Source: Planctomycetota bacterium (GTDB lineage: Bacteria > Planctomycetota > GCA-2746535). From it: 64,000 bases of DNA. Below, one piece after another: positions 53,678 through 63,751 of this stretch (its first letter is position 1; each line of letters begins with the position of its first letter). Both the position numbers and the translations under genes were made by a program. The DNA is taken from contig NVWA01000008.1 in assembly GCA_002746535.1 (NCBI GenBank), forward strand, positions 63,935 to 127,934, in the 5' to 3' direction. The notes under the pieces are model-generated. The model was not told the DNA's origin. It did not search any database and saw only the letters and a list, made by a program, of their open reading frames with translations.

Positions 53678-53739
53678 AAAAGTTCTCCGTTATTTAGTAT
53701 TGGCCTTGAAATCACGATTATTACCTATAAAGACTCTAA

Positions 53740-53757
53740 CTTGACTAAATTTATCAG
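53740..53757 (+). promoter_or_regulatory. Operator-like site 1 for the Rrf2 regulator
   Basis: CTTGACTAAATTTATCAG. It matches, in inverted orientation, the site at 53832-53849: CTTGACTA-N4-TATCA is shared (13 positions). It lies about 20 bases before the -35 region. Confidence 0.5.
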
Positions 53758-53760
53758 TTT

Positions 53761-53774
53761 ACTTTTTAAAAAGT
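53761..53774. promoter_or_regulatory. Perfect 14-bp palindrome next to the -35 region
   Basis: ACTTTTTAAAAAGT is a perfect palindrome abutting the promoter. It could be an extra binding site, though A/T-rich palindromes arise easily by chance. Confidence 0.3.
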
Positions 53775-53802
53775 GTTGAAAAGCTGAAGTTTTTACTATA
53801 AT
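53774..53802 (+). promoter_or_regulatory. Promoter of the rrf2-cys cluster
   Basis: TGTTGA (or TTGAAA two bases on) and a perfect TATAAT at 53797-53802, 48 bases before the rrf2 ATG. Flanked on both sides by matching inverted sites. Confidence 0.5.
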
Positions 53803-53831
53803 CCGACCAAAACAGCAATTTTAAAAGTAAG

Positions 53832-53849
53832 TTGATAAGAATAGTCAAG
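53832..53849 (-). promoter_or_regulatory. Operator-like site 2, abutting the rrf2 start codon
   Basis: Plus strand TTGATAAGAATAGTCAAG. Its reverse complement reads CTTGACTATTCTTATCAA, matching site 1. It also has weak inner dyad symmetry (TTGA...TCAA), as expected for a dimeric Rrf2 protein. It occupies the place of the ribosome site, so binding would block early transcription. Confidence 0.5.
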
Positions 53850-53850
53850 T

Positions 53851-54264
53851 ATGTTTTGTTTGTCTACTAAAGGAATCTATGGGGCTCAAGCTTTAATAGA
53901 ACTATCACTTCGACATGGGAATGGCGTTGTGCAGATAAAAGAATTGGCTGAGAGTTGTCAAATTTCTAAAACATACTTAGAGCAACTTTTTAATTTGCTA
54001 AAGAAGGCCGAAATCGTTAGAAGTGTTCGAGGGAATAAAGGTGGTTATTCGCTGGCAAGAGAACCAGAAGAAATTTCATTGATGGATGTCATGGTAGCCT
54101 TAGAAGGGTGTATTGAGATTTCAAAAAATGTTGAAGTCAAAGGTGTTTTAGAATCTGTTTTCAAAGACACTGAAAATGGTATTAGAGATTCCTTATCGGT
54201 TAGTTTAAAAGAACTAGCAGATAAAGAAAAAGTTAAAAACGAAAATGTCACTTTTTATATTTGA
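53851..54264 (+). CDS. Rrf2-family transcription regulator (CymR-like)
   Basis: 137 residues. The winged-helix part is typical (STKGIYGAQALIELS, IKELAESCQISKTYLEQLFNLLKKAEIVRSVRGNKGGYSLAREP). The C-terminal dimer region has only one Cys (VALEGCIEISKN), so the three-Cys iron-sulfur site of IscR is missing. The cluster-free form and the position directly before cysK resemble CymR, the cysteine-metabolism repressor of Firmicutes that senses O-acetylserine through CysK. Two matching operator-like sites flank its promoter, suggesting autoregulation and control of the whole sulfur operon (inference). Confidence 0.85.
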   Translation: MFCLSTKGIYGAQALIELSLRHGNGVVQIKELAESCQISKTYLEQLFNLLKKAEIVRSVRGNKGGYSLAREPEEISLMDVMVALEGCIEISKNVEVKGVLESVFKDTENGIRDSLSVSLKELADKEKVKNENVTFYI

Positions 54265-54272
54265 GAGATTTG

Positions 54273-55193
54273 ATGAAGATTGCAAAAGATATTACAGAGC
54301 TTGTTGGTAAGACGCCTTTAGTCCAAATAAATAAGGTAATGGGAGATGATAACTTTACTGTTGCTAAACTTGAATTTTTTAACCCTACTTCTTCAGTTAA
54401 GGATCGTGCTGCACTTGAAATGGTAAATGAAGCCGAGAGATCAGGTGCCTTAAAAAAAGGGTCGACTATAATTGAAGCTACCAGTGGAAACACAGGGATA
54501 TCATTGGCTTTTATTGCTGCAGCAAGGGAATATAAGTTGGTATTAGTAATGCCTGAAGCCATGAGCATCGAACGTAAGCGTTTACTAAAATATCTTGGAG
54601 CTCATTTAGAATTGACTTCGGCCCATTTGGGAATGAAAGGATCAATTGATCGAGCAAATGTATTGGCAGGTGAAATTGAAAATTCATTTCTTGTGAAACA
54701 ATTTGATAATCCTGCCAATGTTGAAGCTCATGTCAAAACAACCGCTAGAGAATTAATTGAAGATACTGATAAAAATATTGATTATGTTTTTGTTGCTACT
54801 GGTACTGGAGGTACCGTAACAGGTATTGCGAAAGTTTTAAAAAAAGAGTTGAAGGATGTAAAAATTATTGCAATTGAGCCTGAAGGTTCTGCCGTATTAG
54901 GTGGAGGAAATGCCGGGCCTCATATGATTCAAGGGATTGGACCTGGGTTTATTCCATCAATTATGGATGTCTCTTTATTAGATGGGATCGTTTCTGTGGG
55001 CAATGAAGAATCCTATGAATATTCAAAGGCATTGGCCAAAGAAGAAGGATTAATTGCAGGCATTAGCTGTGGAGCGACCGTTGCCGGTGCTAAAAAATAT
55101 ATAGCTGAAAATAATATCAAAAATAAAAATATTGTTTTGATCTTCATGGATTCTGGTGAGAGATATACCAGTATTGATAGATTGATGAGTTAA
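54273..55193 (+). CDS. cysK: Cysteine synthase (O-acetylserine sulfhydrylase)
   Basis: PLP enzyme making cysteine from O-acetylserine and sulfide. About 306 residues. PLP lysine K43 in SSVKDRAA, substrate loop TSGNTG (70-75) and phosphate loop GTGGTVTGI are present, as is GIGPGFIP. The ATG at 54273 is chosen over a TTG inside the rrf2 end; it lies 8 bases after the rrf2 stop. A CysM-type enzyme using a thiocarboxylate carrier is an alternative reading given the ThiS-like gene next door; the sequence looks like CysK. Confidence 0.92.
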   Translation: MKIAKDITELVGKTPLVQINKVMGDDNFTVAKLEFFNPTSSVKDRAALEMVNEAERSGALKKGSTIIEATSGNTGISLAFIAAAREYKLVLVMPEAMSIERKRLLKYLGAHLELTSAHLGMKGSIDRANVLAGEIENSFLVKQFDNPANVEAHVKTTARELIEDTDKNIDYVFVATGTGGTVTGIAKVLKKELKDVKIIAIEPEGSAVLGGGNAGPHMIQGIGPGFIPSIMDVSLLDGIVSVGNEESYEYSKALAKEEGLIAGISCGATVAGAKKYIAENNIKNKNIVLIFMDSGERYTSIDRLMS

Positions 55194-55207
55194 TCAAAGG
55201 ATAGAAA

Positions 55208-55423
55208 ATGAAAATGAAAATTAAAGTTAATGGTGAAGAAAAAGAAATTACTGGCGAAATAAATATTACGACATTGTTGAAAGAAAATGATGTTGAGCAA
55301 CCTGACATGGTTTCAGTTCAGTTAAATGGTGAATTTGTCGAGCGAGATGTATTTGAATCTACTAGCGTTAAAGAAAATGATGAAGTTGAGTTCTTATATT
55401 TTATGGGTGGAGGTGTAAACTAA
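55208..55423 (+). CDS. ThiS/CysO/HcyS-like sulfur carrier protein with extended C-terminus
   Basis: 71 residues with the small ubiquitin fold of ThiS/MoaD (MKIKVNGEEKEIT, VSVQLNGEFVERD, VKENDEVEFLYFMGGGVN). The chain ends in Gly-Gly-Gly-Val-Asn, so two residues must be removed to expose a C-terminal Gly for adenylation. CysO and the Wolinella HcyS are likewise made as precursors and cut by a JAMM protease. It sits 14 bases after cysK and 1 base before the sulfhydrylase gene. The carrier probably bears the sulfide as a thiocarboxylate. Confidence 0.85.
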   Translation: MKMKIKVNGEEKEITGEINITTLLKENDVEQPDMVSVQLNGEFVERDVFESTSVKENDEVEFLYFMGGGVN

Positions 55424-55424
55424 T

Positions 55425-56651
55425 ATGGAAGGTTTCACAAGTAAATCCATCCACACTAAATTTTTGAAAAAAGATGCTCATGGGTCATTGCACATGCCTG
55501 TATATGATTGTGTCTCTTTTGAATTTGAATCATCGGAAGCAATTGTTGATGCTTTTGAAGGTAAAAAAGCAGCACATGCTTACACTAGAATTACAAACCC
55601 AACCATGGAACATTTTGAACAAAAAATACGTGCAGTGACGGGAGCTCAAGCAGTCTTGGCATTGTCTTCTGGCATGGCTGCTATTAGTAATCTAATCATG
55701 ACATTATGTGGAAGTGGTGATCATATCATTTGCAGTACATATTTATTTGGCAATACGAAATCCCTCTTGGATGTCACTCTAAAAAAATGGGGCTTGGAAG
55801 TTTCATTTGTTGACTTGGAAGATTTAGATGCGGTAAAAGCTGCTGTAACTGATAAGACGAGAATGATCTTTGGCGAAACAATTGCGAATCCTCAAATGAG
55901 AGTGATCGATATTCCTAATTTATCAAAAATTGCCAAAGAAAATGATATCCCATTAGTAATTGATTCAACGGTTACACCTCCATACCTTTTTGACGGTAAA
56001 GTACATGGTGCTGATATAGAAGTGATTTCTTCAACCAAATATATAAGTGGTGGTGCGACGAGCGTTGGCGGATTAATAATAGACCATGGTACTTTTGCCT
56101 GGAAAAAAAATATACATTTAGCAGATCTTGCAAAGAAAGTTGGTCCATTTGCATTGATAGCAAATCTTCGAAAAGAGGTCTATCGAAATTTAGGTGCTTG
56201 TATTTCCCCTCACAATGCTAACTTGCAAAGCTTGGGCTTAGATACGTTGGCCTTGAGAGCTGATAAGTCTTGCAAGAACACACTTGAGCTTGCGAAGTTT
56301 TTAGAAGGGAATGATAAAATCAAAAAAGTAAATTATCCTGGTTTGACTTCTTCTCCATACCATGAAATTAGTGATGTTTTATTTCCTAATTTACCTGGAT
56401 CAATCTTAACGTTTGATTGCGAGAGCAAGGAAGCCAGTTTTGTCTTAATGAATAAACTGCAAATGATAAGAAGATCAACAAATTTGAATGACAATAAGAC
56501 TTTGATCATACACCCCTCATCTACAATTTTTGCTGAGTTTTCTGAAGAAGAAAAACTAGAAATGGAAGTAACCCCAACATTATTGAGGTTGTCTGTCGGG
56601 ATTGAAGATATTGAAGATATAAAAAATGATTTACTCCAAGGATTAGAATAA
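55425..56651 (+). CDS. O-acetylhomoserine sulfhydrylase-like (Cys/Met metabolism PLP enzyme)
   Basis: 408 residues of the cystathionine-synthase/sulfhydrylase family. YTRITNPT at about 53-60, LALSSGMAAIS, PLP lysine K205 in SSTKYISGG, and the C-terminal RRSTNLNDNKTLIIHPSST are in place. Length and neighbours fit O-acetylhomoserine sulfhydrylase (MetY), which makes homocysteine. MetY of Wolinella takes sulfur from the HcyS thiocarboxylate. Here it is bracketed by the carrier and the E1-like gene. A methionine gamma-lyase or a cystathionine synthase cannot be ruled out from sequence alone. Confidence 0.85.
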   Translation: MEGFTSKSIHTKFLKKDAHGSLHMPVYDCVSFEFESSEAIVDAFEGKKAAHAYTRITNPTMEHFEQKIRAVTGAQAVLALSSGMAAISNLIMTLCGSGDHIICSTYLFGNTKSLLDVTLKKWGLEVSFVDLEDLDAVKAAVTDKTRMIFGETIANPQMRVIDIPNLSKIAKENDIPLVIDSTVTPPYLFDGKVHGADIEVISSTKYISGGATSVGGLIIDHGTFAWKKNIHLADLAKKVGPFALIANLRKEVYRNLGACISPHNANLQSLGLDTLALRADKSCKNTLELAKFLEGNDKIKKVNYPGLTSSPYHEISDVLFPNLPGSILTFDCESKEASFVLMNKLQMIRRSTNLNDNKTLIIHPSSTIFAEFSEEEKLEMEVTPTLLRLSVGIEDIEDIKNDLLQGLE

Positions 56652-56652
56652 C

Positions 56653-57462
56653 ATGAGAGACTTTACAGAAGATCAACTAGAGCGCTATAGTAGGCATATT
56701 TTACTACAAGATGTTGGTGTTGAAGGTCAAGAAAAAATTATGGATGCCAAAGTTTTTATTGTTGGTGCTGGTGGTCTAGGTGCTCCTGTAGCATTGTATT
56801 TAGCCGCTGCTGGTGTTGGTAAGATTGGTATTGCCGATTTTGATGTTGTTGATTTATCGAATTTACAAAGACAAGTAATACATTTTACTGATGATGTTGG
56901 AAAATTAAAAATAGATTCCGCCGCTGAAAAAATGAGAGCTATTAATCCTAATATAGAAGTAGATGCGATTAATGAAATGGTTGTTGCTGCAAATATAAGA
57001 GATCTTATAAAAGGTTATGACTTTGTTTTAGATGGAACGGATAATTTTTCAGCAAAATTTTTAATCAATGATGCTTGTGTAATGGAAGGCATCCCTTATA
57101 GCCATGGTGGTATTCTACGTTTTGATGGTCAAACAATGACGATTAAGCCTAAAGAGACAGCTTGTTATAGATGTGTTTTCAAACAACCACCTCCTGCAAA
57201 TGCTGTCCCAACTTGTTCGCAAGCAGGTGTTTTAGGTGCTATTGCAGGCATGTTAGGAACTATGCAGGCGGCAGAATGTTTGAAGTTTATTACGGGAGCC
57301 GGTGATTTGTTAACTAATAAATTGCTTTCGTTTAATGCTAAAACAATGGACTTTAGAAAAGTGAATATCAAGAGAAACCCAAACTGTGCTGTTTGTGGTG
57401 ACAGCCCAACGATTACTGAGTTGAGTGATGGTGAACAAGCTGTTTGTGATATAAAAAAGTAG
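56653..57462 (+). CDS. E1-like adenylyltransferase (ThiF/MoeB/HcyF-type)
   Basis: Adenylates the C-terminal Gly of the sulfur carrier so that sulfide can attack. 269 residues. ATP site GAGGLG at 38-43; DLSNLQRQV follows; two zinc-binding CxxC pairs (C171/C174 and C245/C248) and C188 in VPTCSQAG are present. No rhodanese domain follows, unlike the MoeB-MOCS3 long form, in keeping with direct use of sulfide. Starts one base after the preceding stop. Functionally closest to HcyF of Wolinella, judged by context. Confidence 0.9.
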   Translation: MRDFTEDQLERYSRHILLQDVGVEGQEKIMDAKVFIVGAGGLGAPVALYLAAAGVGKIGIADFDVVDLSNLQRQVIHFTDDVGKLKIDSAAEKMRAINPNIEVDAINEMVVAANIRDLIKGYDFVLDGTDNFSAKFLINDACVMEGIPYSHGGILRFDGQTMTIKPKETACYRCVFKQPPPANAVPTCSQAGVLGAIAGMLGTMQAAECLKFITGAGDLLTNKLLSFNAKTMDFRKVNIKRNPNCAVCGDSPTITELSDGEQAVCDIKK

Positions 57463-57472
57463 GTATATTTAA

Positions 57473-57880
57473 ATGGAATTGAAAATTATTGGATCAGTCT
57501 ACGAGAAATTAATAGAGATATCTCGAGAAGGAATACCAAATGAAATTTGTGGCTATTTATCAGGTGCAGATGATGTTTGTGAAGAGCTTCATCAACTTGA
57601 AAATATAAGTGATACGCCAGAAGTCTTTTTTAATTTTAATCCAAAAGATCAGTTTGCTGTTACAAAAGAGATTAGAGAAAAAGGAACTAAGTTTTTAGTT
57701 TGTTTTCATAGTCATCCCATTGGTGGGGAATCTCTTTCGAAAGATGATAAAAAATTACTAATCGATAAAAGTATGAAATACATAATAGTATCTTTACGAC
57801 TATCAGTACCAGTTGTGAATGCTTGGTCTTTTGATGGTGAAGAATATAAGCCACTAACTATAAGTATATTGGAGAAATAA
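57473..57880 (+). CDS. JAMM/Mov34 metalloprotease (Mec+/HcyD-like)
   Basis: Zinc isopeptidase-like protease of 135 residues. The JAMM site is complete: E24 in NEICGYL, then H79-x-H81-P-x6-S89-x2-D92. In Mycobacterium the Mec+ protease releases cysteine from CysO; in Wolinella HcyD trims the carrier before activation. Since the carrier here ends in two extra residues, trimming is the most likely job; release of a carrier-bound product is possible too. It follows the E1-like gene by 10 bases. Confidence 0.9.
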   Translation: MELKIIGSVYEKLIEISREGIPNEICGYLSGADDVCEELHQLENISDTPEVFFNFNPKDQFAVTKEIREKGTKFLVCFHSHPIGGESLSKDDKKLLIDKSMKYIIVSLRLSVPVVNAWSFDGEEYKPLTISILEK

Positions 57881-57881
57881 A

Positions 57882-60224
57882 ATGAAGTTTTATCAAACAG
57901 CTGACACCTTAATTGCGGAACAGGATCAGTTTGATCTGGATGTAAATGATTTTATTGCTGGCAAAATTGAACCAGTTAAATTTAAGGCTATTCGCGTAGC
58001 TCATGGTGTATATGAACAAAGAAAAGAAGAAACCTACATGATCCGTATTCGTTGTGCTGCCGGTGGCATCACACCTTCTCAATTTAAAGTAGTTGGGGAA
58101 CTTGCTGAAAAATACGGTAGTGGAGAAGTTCATGTTACGACTAGACAGGAAGTTCAAATTCATTATGTGAGAGCTGAAAATATCCTACGAGTCATCAGAG
58201 GTCTAAATGTTGTCAGTTTATCATCACGAGGCGGCGGTGGAAATACCATTAGAAATATATTAACGCCACCTGATTCTGGCATTGATCCTGATGAAGAATT
58301 TGATGTAGATCCTTATGCCATAGCATTAACATCTAGATTAATTCAAGAACCAGATAGTTGGAATTTACCAAGAAAGTTCAAAATAAATTTTTCAAATTCA
58401 AAAGCTGATAAATCTTATACCCAAGCAACTTGTCTTGGATTTGTAGCGCTCATGAAAGACGGCAAAAAAGGCTTTTATGTTACTTGTGCTGGTGGAATGG
58501 GTGCCAAACCAATGGTTGGGCATACATTGATTGACTGGATTCCGGATGCACAAGTTTATCACGTTGCCAGAGCACTCAAAACGATGTTTGATAAGAATGG
58601 CAATCGAAGAAGTCGAACAACAAATCGAATAAAATTTTTATGGAAAAAAATAGGCGAAGATTCATTTCAAGATTTATTTTTAGAAGAATATAACAAAATT
58701 AAAGATGATGCTAGTCTAGCTCTTAATCTTATTGAGCTTGATAATAGTACTGTTGTTGAATCTTCTTTATCTGTAGAAGTTGTCGATAAACCTGAATTTG
58801 AAATTTGGAAAAAACGATTTGTTAATAAACAAAAACAAGAAGGTTTATTTTCTATCTTGTTACCTTTAAAACTAGGAGATATTGAGCATAGTGAAGTTAA
58901 TCGCTTGGCGGATTTTTTAGAAAATTTTGGCGATAATACAATTCGTTGTACGAGAGCTCAAAATCTTTTATTAAGAAACATTCCTGAAAAATATTTGGGC
59001 AATGCGTTCAATACAATTCAAAAAATTGAAACGTTATCTGATAGAGCTTCTTTTATTGGTCAAATGGTTAATTGTACTGGAGCCAGTACATGTAAACTTG
59101 GAATTTGTTTACCAAGAGGATTGAGTTCAGCGATTAGTTCACGACTTGTAGGTAGTGATTTAGATTTAGATAGATTAAGTGATTTTAAATTAAATATGTC
59201 TGGTTGTCCAAATACTTGTGGATTGCATCATATCGCAGATTTAGGCTTTTTTGGAAAAGTATCACGGCATAACGGGAAAATGTATCCGGGATATAATGTG
59301 TTAGCCGGTGCTCAGCTAGCTATGGGTGATACTAAATATGCTGAAAAAGTTTCAACGATCAGCTCGAAAGCGGTTCCTGATTTTGTACATGATTTTTTAG
59401 AAGACTACTTAACAAAGATGGATTCTGTTGGATCTTATAAAGAGTATTTAGAAGTTGCTGGCATTGATAAAATTAAATCACTGTGTGAACATTATAAAGA
59501 TATTCCTGATTTCGATGATGATCAAAGTTCTTATATTGATTTTGGTGCTACTAAACCTTTATCTCTTGAGGAAATAGGTACAGCCGAATGTTCTGCAGGA
59601 ATGTTTGATATGATTGATGTTGATAAAAAATTAATTAATTTGCACAATAAAAGACTTTCGGAAGCAACAACAGAAGAAGATGAGCAAAAAGCATTGTACA
59701 AAGTGCTATTTTCCTCATCGAGAATGTTATTAGTTACAAGAGGGTTAGATGCTAAAAAGGAGTCAGATGCTTTTGCAATGTTTAAAAAACATTTTATTGA
59801 AGCAGGATTAATTGATGAGAAATTCGGTGATGTGGTAACACTTGGCAAATTAAATGTAGTAAGTGAATTGGTTAATCACAAAGACCTTATCGTTGAATTA
59901 TCTGCTGAAGTAATCAAATTACATAAAAGTATGGATGATTCTTTAAGATTTAATATTGAAAACAAAAAGGTTGCTGAAGAGAAATCTGTTGCCGTTGATG
60001 AAATCACATTCAAAGATTTCAGAGGTGTGGCTTGTCCTATGAACTTCGTGAAAACAAAAATGGTTTTAGCCTCATTAAAGGGTGGCGATAAGTTAAAAAT
60101 ATTATTGGATGATGGTGAGCCAATAAATAATGTCCCTAATTCTGTGAAATTAGAAGGGCATAAAATCCTTGAGCAAAGTCAAGAGACCGAAGGTCATTGG
60201 CAAGTGTTAATTGAAAAGGCTTAG
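57882..60224 (+). CDS. Sulfite/nitrite reductase with C-terminal TusA domain
   Basis: 780 residues. Residues 1-500 are a sirohaem/4Fe-4S reductase: RIRCAAGGITP and VHVTTRQEVQIHYV at the N-terminus, and cluster cysteines C398, C404 (C-x5-C) and C442, C446 (C-x3-C). Residues about 560-690 form a helical segment I do not recognise. Residues 705-780 are a TusA-like sulfur-transfer domain with C718-P719 (GVACPMNFVKTKMVLASL). Located among the sulfur genes, it should make sulfide from sulfite; no flavoprotein subunit is present, so ferredoxin is the likely donor. The TusA domain may carry the product as a persulfide. Confidence 0.85.
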   Translation: MKFYQTADTLIAEQDQFDLDVNDFIAGKIEPVKFKAIRVAHGVYEQRKEETYMIRIRCAAGGITPSQFKVVGELAEKYGSGEVHVTTRQEVQIHYVRAENILRVIRGLNVVSLSSRGGGGNTIRNILTPPDSGIDPDEEFDVDPYAIALTSRLIQEPDSWNLPRKFKINFSNSKADKSYTQATCLGFVALMKDGKKGFYVTCAGGMGAKPMVGHTLIDWIPDAQVYHVARALKTMFDKNGNRRSRTTNRIKFLWKKIGEDSFQDLFLEEYNKIKDDASLALNLIELDNSTVVESSLSVEVVDKPEFEIWKKRFVNKQKQEGLFSILLPLKLGDIEHSEVNRLADFLENFGDNTIRCTRAQNLLLRNIPEKYLGNAFNTIQKIETLSDRASFIGQMVNCTGASTCKLGICLPRGLSSAISSRLVGSDLDLDRLSDFKLNMSGCPNTCGLHHIADLGFFGKVSRHNGKMYPGYNVLAGAQLAMGDTKYAEKVSTISSKAVPDFVHDFLEDYLTKMDSVGSYKEYLEVAGIDKIKSLCEHYKDIPDFDDDQSSYIDFGATKPLSLEEIGTAECSAGMFDMIDVDKKLINLHNKRLSEATTEEDEQKALYKVLFSSSRMLLVTRGLDAKKESDAFAMFKKHFIEAGLIDEKFGDVVTLGKLNVVSELVNHKDLIVELSAEVIKLHKSMDDSLRFNIENKKVAEEKSVAVDEITFKDFRGVACPMNFVKTKMVLASLKGGDKLKILLDDGEPINNVPNSVKLEGHKILEQSQETEGHWQVLIEKA

Positions 60225-60228
60225 TGAT

Positions 60229-60963
60229 ATGAGTGAAAAATTACAACAGTATCTTGATGAGACTAAAGATTTAGATGCCCTACAATTAGTTGAATGGGGG
60301 TTGTCAACATTTGGTAAAAATAAAATTGCTTTAGCATCCAGTTTAGGTGCAGAAGATCAAGTTCTTACGCAAATGATTTTGAAAGTTGATTCCCATGCTA
60401 GAATATTCACCTTAGATACAGGTCGACAATTTCAAGAAAACTATGATGTGATGACTGCTAGTATTGAAAAATATGATTTTAATTATGAAGTCTGTTTTCC
60501 AGAAGTTGAAGCGGTACAAAATCTAATGAACCGCGGTGGACCAAATTTATTTTATAATAGTATTGAAGATAGAAAAGCTTGTTGTGAAGTTAGAAAAATG
60601 GCACCGCTAAGAAAAAAATTGTCGACGGTAGATTGTTGGGCTACTGGTTTAAGGAGTCAGCAGTCGGTAACAAGGACAGATACTCCTTCTGTTGAATGGG
60701 ATGATAATTTTGGTATTTTCAAAATTAATCCATTAATAAATTGGTCAGAAAATAGTGTTTGGGATTTCATCAAAGAAAATGAAATCCCTTATAATAAATT
60801 ACATGATAAGGGGTTTCCAAGTATAGGATGCCAACCATGTACACGAGCTGTAAAAGAGGGTGAAGATGTTCGTGGTGGTCGTTGGTGGTGGGAAACACCA
60901 GAGCAAAAAGAATGTGGCTTGCACATGAAAGATGGCAAGTTAGTTAGAAAGTCAACAGATTAA
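60229..60963 (+). CDS. cysH: Adenylyl-sulfate (APS) reductase, 4Fe-4S type
   Basis: Reduces APS to sulfite. About 244 residues. [23 protein letters not shown] and the [12 protein letters not shown] strand are in place. The iron-sulfur cysteines are complete (CC at 118-119 and C-x2-C at 201/204), with catalytic Cys229 in KECGLH. The cluster cysteines place it among APS, not PAPS, reductases. The ATG at 60229 follows the reductase stop by 4 bases; a TTG start would overlap it. Confidence 0.93.
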
Positions 60964-60977
60964 AAGAAAGTATTAAA

Positions 60978-61859
60978 ATGGATCGTATAGAAAAACTTGA
61001 AGCTCAAAGTGTTCATATTTTGAGAGAGGCGTATCGTGAATTTAAAGACCTTGTGATGCTTTGGTCAGTCGGTAAAGATAGCACCGTGTTATTGTGGTTG
61101 GCAAGAAAAGCATTTTTCGGTCATGTGCCTTTTCCGTTAGTTCATATAGACACACATTATAAAATTCCTCAAATGATTGAATATAGAGATAATTTAGCCG
61201 CTGAATGGAAGCTAAATATGGTTTATGGTCAGAATAAAGAAGCCTTAAAAAATAAGCAGACTTATCCCGACGGTAACCTTGATAGAATTTCTTGCTGTAA
61301 AAATTTAAAAAGTGAAGCGCTAAAACATACGCTATCTGGTGAATGGGAGCGGTTTAGATTCAATCATGATAAAGGTGAATATGATGTGGATACTAATAAA
61401 GAACCATATACAGGTGTTATTGTTGGAGTTCGAGCTGATGAAGAAGGTAGTCGATCAAAGGAACGTTATTTTTCCCCAAGAGATAAAGAAAATGACTGGG
61501 ATGTAGATGACCAACCACCTGAATTTTGGAATCAATATAAAACTGATTTTGCTCCTGGAACGCACTTGAGAATTCATCCTCTGTTAGATTGGACTGAACT
61601 TAATATTTGGGAATATATTCAAAAAGAAGATATTCCAATAGTTGATTTGTATTTTGATCGAGGTGAAGGCCAGAGATATAGAAGTTTAGGCTGTTATCCA
61701 TGTACTACTCCAGTTGAATCAACTGCAAAGAATATTCCTGAAATTATTGAGGAATTAAAAAGTGGTAAATTTGCAAATGTTGCCGAGAGATCTGGGCGAG
61801 CACAAGATAAAGAAGATGGTGGTGGGTTAGAAACCCTTCGTCGCGACGGGTATATGTAA
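60978..61859 (+). CDS. cysD: Sulfate adenylyltransferase subunit 2
   Basis: ATP sulfurylase catalytic subunit, forming APS from sulfate and ATP. 293 residues. The PP-loop is SVGKDST near residue 31; [35 protein letters not shown] and [11 protein letters not shown] are in family order, and the C-terminal [12 protein letters not shown]...LRRDGYM is typical. It follows cysH and precedes its regulatory partner cysN. Confidence 0.97.
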
Positions 61860-61918
61860 ACTGAAATAGAATTATATGGATGTCTTTGTATGGGCATTCC
61901 AAAAAAGGAGAAAAGTTC

Positions 61919-63751
61919 GTGACTGAGCAAACAAACGAATTGGTAAAAATAGAAGAAGATAAAGAGCAAATGAGTATCGTGATTGTCGGTCACGTTGATC
62001 ACGGTAAAAGTACCGTAATTGGTCGCCTATTAGCTGACACAGGATCATTGCCCGATGGCAAGTTAGAAGCTGTCAGAAGAAATTGTGAATTAAATTCAAA
62101 ACCTTTTGAATATGCTTTTTTGCTGGATGCCTTAAAAAATGAACAAGCACAAGGCATTACGATTGATACAGCGCGCTGTTTTTTTCAATCTGATTTAAGA
62201 CACTATATCATTATTGATGCGCCAGGTCACATTGAGTTTTTAAAAAATATGGTGACAGGTGCTGCGAGAGCTCAGGCCGCTTTGTTGGTTATAGATGCCA
62301 AAGAAGGTATTCGTGAAAATTCTAAAAGGCATGGTTATTTAATATCTATGCTAGGAATTAAAGACGTTGTAGTTTTAGTAAATAAACTTGATTTAGTCGA
62401 TTACAGTGAAAAAGTTTTCAATGATATCAAAGAGGAGTTCACTGGTTTTCTAAAAAAATTAAATGTTACACCAATAAACTTTATCCCTATATCTGCAAGA
62501 GAAGGTGAAAATATTGCTAATCATTCATCAGAAATGAAATGGTATAAAGGTCCGAATGTTTTAAAGCAATTAGATTTATTTGAGGTCGTTAATGATAAGG
62601 GTGATCAACCATTTAGGTTACCTGTCCAAGATATTTATAAATTTACCCAACAAAACGATGATCGTAGAATTGTTGCAGGTACTGTTGTCTCAGGGAAAAT
62701 TGACGTTGGTGATGAGGTTACATTTTACCCTTCTGGAAAAAAGTCGACGATATCAAAAATTGAAATGTTTAATACGCCAGAAAAAACAACGGCTACTGTT
62801 GGCGAAGTCTGTGGCTATAGCTTAAGTACTCAAATATACACTAAAGCTGGTGAGATGATGGTGAAAAGTTCAGAGGAGCCACCTAAAGTAAGTAATCGGT
62901 TTAGAGTAAACATATTCTGGGTTGGTAAAGCACCTATGATAAAAGGAAAGAATTATAAACTTAAATTACATGCGACTAGTTCCCCAGTAAAATTGGTAGA
63001 TATTCTTAATGTTTTGGATGCCTCGGATTTAACATCAGTTGCTAATAAACAACAAGTTGATAGACATGATGTAGCCGAATGTGTTTTTGAAACAACTAAG
63101 CCCGTTGCCTTTGATTTAAGTAGTGATATTGAAGGTACCAGCCGAGTGGTGATTGTGGATAATTTTGAAATTGCAGGTGGCGGTATTATATTTCATGATA
63201 TTCAAGAAGAAAACACAACCTTAAAGCAATATATTGAGAACCGTGAAGAAGCATGGGTAAAAGGCGAAATCAGTGAGTTAGATAGGTCGGTTGTTTATGG
63301 TCACAAATCTAAATTCATTTTAATTACAGGAAGTGATGAGCAGGGCTGTAAGTCAATTGCCGTAGCTCTAGAAAAGAAATTGTTTGATAGTAAGTTTAAA
63401 GCCTATTATTTGGGTATGTCTAATTTGCTAACTACCATGGGGGAAAATCGTGGTAGTGTACTTGATCAAAATGAACAAATAAAATGGCTAGGCGAATTGG
63501 CTAGATTTTTTACTGGTTCTGGACAAATCTTTATATCAGCAATATCACACTTAGATGATTTTGATATTGAAAATTTAAAGGTTCTAAATTCACCTAGCGA
63601 TATCTTAGTTGTCAATGTAGGTGAAAACCAACTTAATAAATATAAAGTTGATTTGGATTTAGAGCAAATCTCAGAAGTTGATGATAGCGTTGGTAAAATA
63701 GTTCAGTTGCTTCATGATGAGCATATATTGCAGGTTGAGTATTACCTATAA
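61919..63751 (+). CDS. cysN: Sulfate adenylyltransferase GTPase subunit with a decayed APS-kinase domain
   Basis: GTPase subunit of ATP sulfurylase fused to a CysC-like region. About 610 residues. Start taken as the GTG at 61919, which has AAGGAG 8 bases upstream; an ATG at 61880 lacks one. GTPase motifs [14 protein letters not shown] and NKLD are intact. Two beta-barrel domains follow. From about residue 450 the APS-kinase-like region begins ([23 protein letters not shown]). Its Walker A is altered to GSDEQGCKS, with Cys where the Lys should be, and the rest is diverged, so kinase activity is unlikely. The pathway here uses APS reductase, which needs no PAPS. Confidence 0.88.

Follow-up and report, generated by a model that had tools for sequence, protein, structure and literature searches.

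A predicted Wolinella-type thiocarboxylate operon for homocysteine in a planctomycetote, with a candidate CysK-docking tail on its CymR-like regulator

The closest described counterpart of the locus reported here is the HcyS/HcyF/HcyD/MetY system of Wolinella succinogenes, a member of an operon class predicted by Iyer, Burroughs and Aravind in 2006 (PMC1779556, Table 1, row 4e). That row combines a ThiS/MoaD-like carrier, a JAB protease, an E1 without rhodanese, SirA/TusA, sulfite reductase, (P)APS reductase, ATP sulfurylase and O-acetylhomoserine sulfhydrylase; a sulfite/sulfate ABC transporter and adenylylsulfate kinase are also listed as components, not stated for every member, and Rrf2 is not mentioned. 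The same paper describes operons of carrier, JAB, E1 and cysteine synthase, with rhodanese listed for their E1. A passage of PMC5764234 attributes the thiocarboxylate chemistry to Krishnamoorthy and Begley 2011, and the route was missing from KEGG and MetaCyc as of 2017 (PMC5764234). A second set of precedents concerns cysteine synthase as a binding partner. The C-terminal Ile tails of CysE and of the toxin CdiA dock in the active site of CysK; the CymR–CysK interaction of Bacillus subtilis and Staphylococcus aureus is likewise known. In plants, the cysteine synthase OASTL binds the sulfate transporter SULTR1;2 and uptake falls (PMC4212615).

We analysed a 64,000-nucleotide stretch of a Planctomycetota genome (the window), in which ten genes lie on the + strand between 53851 and 63751:

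53851-54264, + strand, rrf2: CymR-like regulator (PF02082), C-terminus NVTFYI, a candidate CysK-docking tail
54273-55193, + strand, cysK: cysteine synthase A (TIGR01139, above cut-off)
55208-55423, + strand, hcyS: ThiS-fold sulfur carrier precursor (PF02597), end FMGGG-VN
55425-56651, + strand, metY: O-acetylhomoserine sulfhydrylase of the W. succinogenes type (PF01053; best PDB match 3ri6)
56653-57462, + strand, hcyF: E1-like adenylyltransferase without a rhodanese domain (PF00899)
57473-57880, + strand, hcyD: JAMM protease (PF14464)
57882-60224, + strand, NirA-type sulfite reductase-TusA fusion (Pfam, AF2 model, Foldseek)
60229-60963, + strand, cysH: APS reductase type (TIGR02055, above cut-off)
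60978-61859, + strand, cysD: ATP sulfurylase small subunit (PRK05253, above cut-off)
61880-63751, + strand, cysN: ATP sulfurylase GTPase subunit with an APS-kinase-like domain (TIGR02034, above cut-off)

Profile matches in Pfam and NCBIfam assign the products, in this order, to Rrf2, CysK, a ThiS-fold carrier, a Cys_Met_Meta_PP enzyme, a ThiF-type E1, Prok-JAB, NIR_SIR plus TusA, APS-type CysH, CysD and CysN, confirming the ten co-directional genes and families named in a preliminary description of this DNA. That description had also given the spacing as 1-60 bases and called the cluster complete from sulfate to homocysteine. The spacing is indeed short, with a range of 1-20 bases, and the cluster does lead from sulfate to homocysteine; sulfate uptake, electron supply and O-acetylhomoserine synthesis are absent, and no sulfate transporter lies between 53851 and 63751. 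Consensus promoters and terminators inside the operon do not exceed the level in shuffled sequence, and an Rfam scan of 50-64 kb found no riboswitch or other RNA.

The evidence for Wolinella-type chemistry centres on the carrier and its partner enzymes. Among PDB structures, the Wolinella enzyme 3ri6 matches MetY best, over residues 1-407 (444 bits, the next match reaching 305), and MetY is the only clear PLP enzyme of Cys/Met metabolism found in the genome. The carrier precursor, a ubiquitin-like protein, ends in FMGGG-VN and thus extends beyond the glycines; such precursor tails are conserved among relatives, and FLYFMGGG is invariant in the carrier alignment across the phylum. Beside it stands a JAMM protease with an intact active site, whose residues E24, H79-x-H81, S89 and D92 form invariant alignment columns. 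HcyF (269 aa) consists of a ThiF domain alone and is 58-70% identical to its operon relatives within the phylum. A metX gene lies outside the cluster (locus L178), adjoining a metW-like gene. The carrier scores 61.2 bits against the NCBIfam ThiS equivalog (cut-off 37.45), a model that evidently catches this carrier family too. Identification of the carrier as ThiS or MoaD was rejected on context, namely sulfate assimilation with no thiG/thiF or moaE setting. The genome also encodes a MoaD (L144, beside MoaE), a MoaD-like protein (L147) and a ThiS-like protein (L146), all separate from the operon carrier. In the tree, the MoaD-type sequences are excluded from the carrier group (93/80), and the ThiS-like sequence sits on a long branch next to the carrier of another operon (L099), not next to that of the window. 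The grouping with ThiS or MoaD that the preliminary description had named as a counter-indication was therefore not found. Taken together, the 3ri6 match, the FMGGG and VN elements, the JAMM motif, the rhodanese-less E1, MetX and the separate carrier make the protein-thiocarboxylate homocysteine route, which that description had proposed, well supported by sequence and context.

A different assignment of the same genes would have MetY work on free sulfide, with carrier, E1 and JAMM serving another acceptor, for example CysK or tRNA thiolation. CysO-type carriers feed CysM in Mycobacterium, and cysK is part of the present operon. Some Nitrospira loci (L085, L095 and L115) pair carrier genes with an adjoining cysK and have no metY; the carrier might therefore also feed cysteine. 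Operons of carrier, JAB, E1 and cysteine synthase (PMC1779556) point the same way. We nevertheless consider this arrangement unlikely for the window: metY sits between the carrier and E1 genes and its product is closest to the Wolinella enzyme, MetY is present in 38 of the 51 loci that hold carrier, E1 and JAMM, and the E1 is free of the rhodanese that Iyer et al. list for operons with a cysteine synthase.

The sulfite reductase-TusA fusion protein comprises a NirA/ferredoxin-type reductase (residues 1 to ~545), a helical domain (572-683), a disordered linker (694-706) and TusA (708-778), so that in the AF2 model TusA is flexibly tethered to the sulfite reductase; its Foldseek matches are NirA (1zj8) and the SirA-like 3hz7. 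CysH, of the APS reductase type by TIGR02055, carries the CC...CxxC motif. The C-terminal APS-kinase-like domain of CysN has no P-loop, and the protein ends in VEYYL.

Compared with Wolinella, the window operon has the same post-glycine residues on the carrier, the E1, the JAMM protease, the 3ri6-like MetY and the sulfate-reduction neighbours; it differs in adding rrf2 and cysK in front, and it is known from sequence alone. It shares with row 4e of Iyer et al. (PMC1779556) all the core components given above; unlike that description, its TusA is fused to sulfite reductase, Rrf2 and CysK are present, the cluster has no sulfate ABC transporter and the APS-kinase-like domain lacks a P-loop. The preliminary description had suggested a possible new version on the strength of Rrf2, cysK and the TusA fusion. 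That uniqueness was rejected, since all three recur in loci of other phyla and the class has been known since 2006. Sulfite reductase-TusA fusions occur in 12 fetched loci, Campylobacterota among them, and the order rrf2-cysK-hcyS-metY-hcyF is found in loci labelled Bacteroidales, Elusimicrobia and Rickettsiales and in one unassigned bacterium. The operon is therefore a variant, not a new kind, of a class spread over many phyla; with the gene set found again in many genomes, a chance arrangement need not be considered. The searched genome set held no other genome of this bacterial class, and a search of viral contigs for the E1 found none. The operon type is thus already known; the new point is a CysK-docking-like tail shared by the regulator and other sulfate-assimilation proteins.

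The best Foldseek match of the Rrf2 protein is B. subtilis CymR (2y75). Among NCBIfam models the CymR equivalog scores best, at 102.6 bits and aligned to the model's last position; since the cut-off of 195 is not reached, we name the protein CymR-like rather than CymR. It ends in TFYI, as do solved CymRs in MFYI (S. aureus 3t8r, Listeria 3lwf) or MYYI (T. potens 4cic). All 11 operon Rrf2s end in an aromatic-x-Ile tail ([YF]xI), and no residue of the C-terminal half of their alignment is invariant apart from the last Ile (n = 11); in the predicted structure this Ile lies in a disordered tail (pLDDT <50). CysK, encoded by the next gene, has the docking-pocket TSGNT (from residue 70) and Q143. 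Clusters of rrf2, cysK and JAMM without the tail exist (L045, L046 and L047), and the generalization that every Rrf2 beside cysK bears it was rejected. The window thus resembles the CymR–CysK pair in the CymR fold, in FYI as in S. aureus CymR and in the CysK next door, and differs in a regulator that scores below the threshold of the equivalog, controls a thiocarboxylate operon, to judge by its position, and is a candidate CysK binder. The Rrf2 switch of the preliminary description is likely to be of the CymR type, with a candidate CysK-docking tail. Upstream of rrf2 lie three further features:

53739-53770, left arm of an inverted repeat (repeat search; 32 nt, 26/32 pairs) that brackets the promoter, candidate operator
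53776-53802, + strand, candidate promoter TTGAAA-15-TATAAT between the arms (pattern match)
53819-53850, right arm of the inverted repeat (repeat search), ending at the rrf2 start codon

The promoter is called on consensus only, because 0.71 such matches are expected by chance in the window. The strength of the inverted repeat was reached by 0 of 40 shuffles, and the repeat was not found upstream of other operon rrf2 genes. Genome-wide, the operator arm gave 97 + 93 matches versus 101 + 101 for the reversed control; with no enrichment over that control, no regulon was found.

The same tail occurs on unrelated sulfate-assimilation proteins: the sulfate-transporter ATPase CysA (21/36), the membrane protein DUF2061 (11/17), serine acetyltransferase (9/12), CysH (6/19) and some CysN, as against 1 of 354 in families taken from these loci as controls. 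SWSDYVI is an example from the CysA, CysH and DUF2061 tails. Among the families compared it is confined to those of sulfur assimilation. The serine acetyltransferase of the window genome has no tail, and the window CysN ends in the Leu variant YYL. The Arabidopsis SAT tail probably reads YLTEWSDYVI. A DNA-level signal was rejected, because across loci with GC contents of 0.32-0.71 the tails draw on each of the three Ile codons, and each of the three stops occurs. These tails could instead have a binding partner other than CysK, or serve as a signal for degradation or for the membrane. CysK docking is argued here by analogy, some tail-bearing genomes are known by locus and not by wider gene content, and some variants end in Leu; yet such tails on CysE, CymR and CdiA have been connected with binding to CysK, the tail is borne in the same loci by serine acetyltransferases, the classic partner of CysK, and the confinement to sulfur-assimilation families also argues against such a role, which we regard as improbable. 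That the Rrf2 is an IscR/NsrR-like Fe-S or redox sensor with an incidental terminal Ile, as its IscR match (82.6 bits) and the many Rrf2s that are Fe-S regulators might suggest, is very unlikely, given that its only Cys residues are at 3, 36 and 90 and the IscR/NsrR trio is missing, that all 11 operon Rrf2s keep the Ile in an otherwise divergent C-terminal half, and that fold and tail agree with CymR.

Our preferred reading, with a probability of roughly 0.75, is a Wolinella-type thiocarboxylate operon that also carries the genes of sulfate activation and reduction, and whose CymR-like repressor is probably under CysK control. Judged from protein family and gene context, CysDN would activate sulfate, and APS-type CysH followed by the sulfite reductase-TusA fusion would reduce it. 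The JAMM protease would trim the carrier from FMGGG-VN to its glycine end, the E1 would adenylate the trimmed carrier, and the thiocarboxylate sulfur would come from sulfide or the tethered TusA; MetY would then form homocysteine from the carrier thiocarboxylate and O-acetylhomoserine. CysK would both make cysteine and report sulfur status. With O-acetylserine low and sulfide ample, the Rrf2 FYI tail would occupy the active site of CysK, and the resulting complex would keep the operon off; accumulating O-acetylserine would displace the tail and permit expression. This docking and its effect are modelled on CymR–CysK, CysE–CysK and CdiA–CysK.

Since CysE and CdiA dock into CysK by tails of this kind, CysK is probably a sulfur-status hub. 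In its general form, in which unrelated proteins have each acquired the aromatic-x-Ile tail on their own and dock with it in the active site of CysK, we hold this proposal to be an even bet. The bearers would be Rrf2 and LuxR-type regulators, CysA, DUF2061, CysH, CysN with a degenerate kinase domain and serine acetyltransferase, and O-acetylserine and sulfide would set uptake, activation, reduction and transcription through one competition. The window operon would be one instance, through Rrf2 FYI and CysN YYL. The plant OASTL–SULTR1;2 pair similarly places a CysK-type enzyme on a sulfate transporter, as proposed for CysA with DYVI-like tails, but there binding involves the STAS domain of another kind of transporter instead of an Ile tail at the C-terminus of an ABC ATPase.

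The operon extends a known, little-studied route to a class with no other genome in the searched set and offers a compact test system, in which the genome's only homocysteine enzyme found stands together with carrier, protease and E1. The tail observation weighs more than the operon itself, and hints at a possible role of CysK as a common sensor of sulfur. If the CysE/CymR docking tail is indeed shared by sulfate transporters, by enzymes of activation and reduction and by regulators of two unrelated kinds, one competition between enzyme and substrate could govern the entire pathway, and sulfur-status sensing in many bacteria would become directly testable.

All ten genes named in the preliminary description (rrf2, cysK, the ThiS-fold carrier hcyS, metY, the E1-like hcyF, the JAMM protease gene hcyD, a sulfite reductase (SiR)-TusA fusion, cysH, cysD and cysN) were found on the forward strand at 53851-63751, spaced by 1-20 bases, and each was matched by Pfam and/or NCBIfam. 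The operon belongs to a class already listed in 2006, in which carrier, JAB (JAMM-type protease), rhodanese-less E1, SirA, sulfite reductase, PAPS reductase, ATP sulfurylase and O-acetylhomoserine sulfhydrylase occur together, with Wolinella among the owners (Iyer et al. 2006; PMC1779556). Among 84 related loci, 80 of them from the named scan, carrier, E1 and JAMM protease are present in 51, and MetY as well in 38. SiR-TusA fusions were found in 12 loci, two of them from Campylobacterota, the phylum of Wolinella, and the order rrf2-cysK-hcyS-metY-hcyF recurs in L076 (a bacterium without assigned lineage), L077 (Bacteroidales), L082 (Elusimicrobia) and L100 (Rickettsiales). Rrf2, CysK and the TusA fusion, initially thought to mark a possible new version, are thus shared with other loci and phyla and are not new; the operon is real, ordinary for its class and a new member or variant of it.

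The Wolinella-type route to homocysteine proposed at the outset is backed by several features. The carrier (71 aa) ends in FMGGG-VN; a GGG end or close variant is common to almost all carriers in related operons, and nearly all have one to eight residues beyond it, so that a protease is required. The adjoining JAMM gene keeps the full set of catalytic residues. The E1 has no rhodanese domain and shares 58-70% identity with its counterparts from this operon in the phylum's other families. MetY matches 3ri6, the structure of the O-acetylhomoserine sulfhydrylase of Wolinella, with 444 bits (second-best solved relative, 305) and is the sole strong Cys_Met_Meta_PP protein of the genome (356 bits; runner-up 38; genome 89% complete); MetX is encoded elsewhere, adjoined by a MetW-like gene. 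The genome has its own MoaD (adjoining MoaE), a MoaD-like and a ThiS-like protein, so that the carrier of the operon stands apart from these three as a fourth. Judged from sequence, these features support a Wolinella-type route with a predicted carrier thiocarboxylate. Among Nitrospira and its relatives, loci L085, L095, L102, L115 and L117 have the carrier or the E1 adjoining cysK and no metY, a possible carrier-to-cysteine route; CysK itself ends in KYFNI in L115 and L117.

CysH scores above the APS-reductase model cut-off and contains the CC...CxxC motif. CysN has an intact GTPase motif, and its APS-kinase-like domain lacks the P-loop, as do that domain's nearest relatives; GLSGSGKS is kept in the phylum's free-standing APS kinases. 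The missing P-loop fits a pathway via APS, not PAPS. This domain, the C-terminal ~170 aa of CysN (61880-63751), also occurs in L041, L076, L086 and L205-L209 as a conserved pseudo-kinase, and its nearest relatives end in Yx[IL]. The sulfite reductase belongs to the NirA type, with 1zj8 as its closest structural match. Five cysteines are invariant across the twelve fusions: C718 in TusA and, as Fe-S/siroheme ligands, residues 398, 404, 442 and 446. The remainder of the fusion is arranged as follows:
residues 572-683 (window ~59595-59930), helical domain in the fusion model, without a Pfam name
residues 694-706, disordered linker
residues 708-778, TusA domain

The Rrf2 fold is closest to B. subtilis CymR, which acts in complex with CysK, and CymR is also its best NCBIfam model (102.6 bits, under the curated cut-off of 195); cysK directly follows rrf2, and the cysteine trio of Fe-S Rrf2s is missing from the sequence. 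Rrf2 ends in NVTFYI; the CymR of S. aureus and the homologue from Listeria end in MFYI. Across 11 operon Rrf2s with 24-45% identity to it, the terminal Ile is the sole invariant residue of the C-terminal half, and its model pLDDT of <50 matches the expectation for a docking tail. The residues by which CysK holds tails of this kind, TSGNT and Q, are present in the operon's enzyme; the genome's serine acetyltransferase has no tail. By analogy, the operon is likely to be regulated by a CymR-like protein with a predicted CysK-docking tail. Upstream of rrf2 lie:
53739-53770 and 53819-53850, inverted repeat of two 32-nt arms (26/32 pairs), candidate operator
53776-53802, candidate promoter TTGAAA-15-TATAAT between the arms, with a perfect TATAAT

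None of 40 shuffles gave such a repeat; ten further rrf2 genes from operons of this class show none in their upstream regions, and as an operator it is no more than a candidate. No known RNA element was found within 50-64 kb of the window. In L106, a Ruminococcus locus, two copies of a direct repeat, AGTAAGT..ATAGGTTTAATAT, flank the rrf2 promoter, possibly as operator of a tail-bearing Rrf2. The rrf2-cysK-JAMM clusters L045, L046, L047 and L048 are possibly a different system; the complete Rrf2s of L045-L047 lack the Ile tail.

Such aromatic-x-Ile ends ([YFW]-x-I) occur in 49 of 1447 gene products of the operon loci, mostly sulfur-assimilation proteins: Rrf2, CysN, CysH, CysA, DUF2061 and serine acetyltransferases. 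The pattern was noticed post hoc and retested on families retrieved blind to tails, where 10 of 16 DUF2061 proteins from the phylum and 15 of 22 complete CysA proteins carried it, as did all Rrf2s adjoining DUF2061. Over all loci, deduplicated, tails end 21/36 CysA, 11/17 DUF2061, 25/47 Rrf2, 9/12 serine acetyltransferases, 6/19 CysH and 9/45 CysN (free-standing kinases being counted in), compared with 1/354 in control families of the same loci (SiR, TusA, CysD, HcyF, HcyS, MetY, HcyD); members of a family are related and not independent trials, and the strength of the pattern lies in unrelated folds sharing one end, not in raw counts. Among CysA, Rrf2 and serine acetyltransferase proteins with an aromatic residue at the third-last position, the terminal residue is always Ile (21/21, 25/25 and 9/9, respectively). 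The CysA tail follows the last conserved domain after a linker of variable length and uses every Ile codon and every stop over locus GC 0.32-0.71, which indicates selection at the protein level. In L250-L272, L071, L083 and L086, CysA tails are mostly [DE]YxI, for example WSDYVI and EDYQI. DUF2061, a small membrane protein inside sulfate-assimilation operons (L041:14830-15051, L076:10011-10238, L107:2882-3100, L234-L249), ends in PEYEI, QDYQI or similar; both DUF2061 copies of the window's genome lack such an end. Seven of 30 phylum Rrf2 loci fetched encode a tailed Rrf2, and these adjoin ABC-importer substrate-binding proteins, a Cys/Met enzyme, serA or cysK/cysH/DUF2061, whereas untailed ones mostly do not. 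Close to operons of Bacteroidales, three regulator-like proteins, LuxR-type or unassigned, also end in FYI or YYI; the LuxR-type (GerE) regulators with these ends, unrelated to Rrf2, lie at L058:11695-12405 (partly N-masked), L060:2801-3439 and L068:2828-3490. The part of the literature that was searched contained no report of tails on CysA, CysH, CysN or DUF2061.

The tails of CysE and CdiA place an Ile in the CysK active site, from which O-acetylserine displaces it (PMC5562914; PMC9547175); in plants, sulfide stabilises the corresponding complex, and the cysteine synthase also binds a sulfate transporter and holds it in check (PMC4212615). What the sequences show is the present tails with their conservation and distribution; as the most economical reading, we infer by analogy that CysK docks them as well. 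In the window, a predicted CysK-Rrf2 repressor complex would be broken by O-acetylserine; in other genomes, CysA, CysH, CysN and DUF2061 would be controlled directly through CysK. CysK may plausibly be a hub for many sulfate-assimilation proteins, and this strongly patterned prediction is the part most deserving pursuit.
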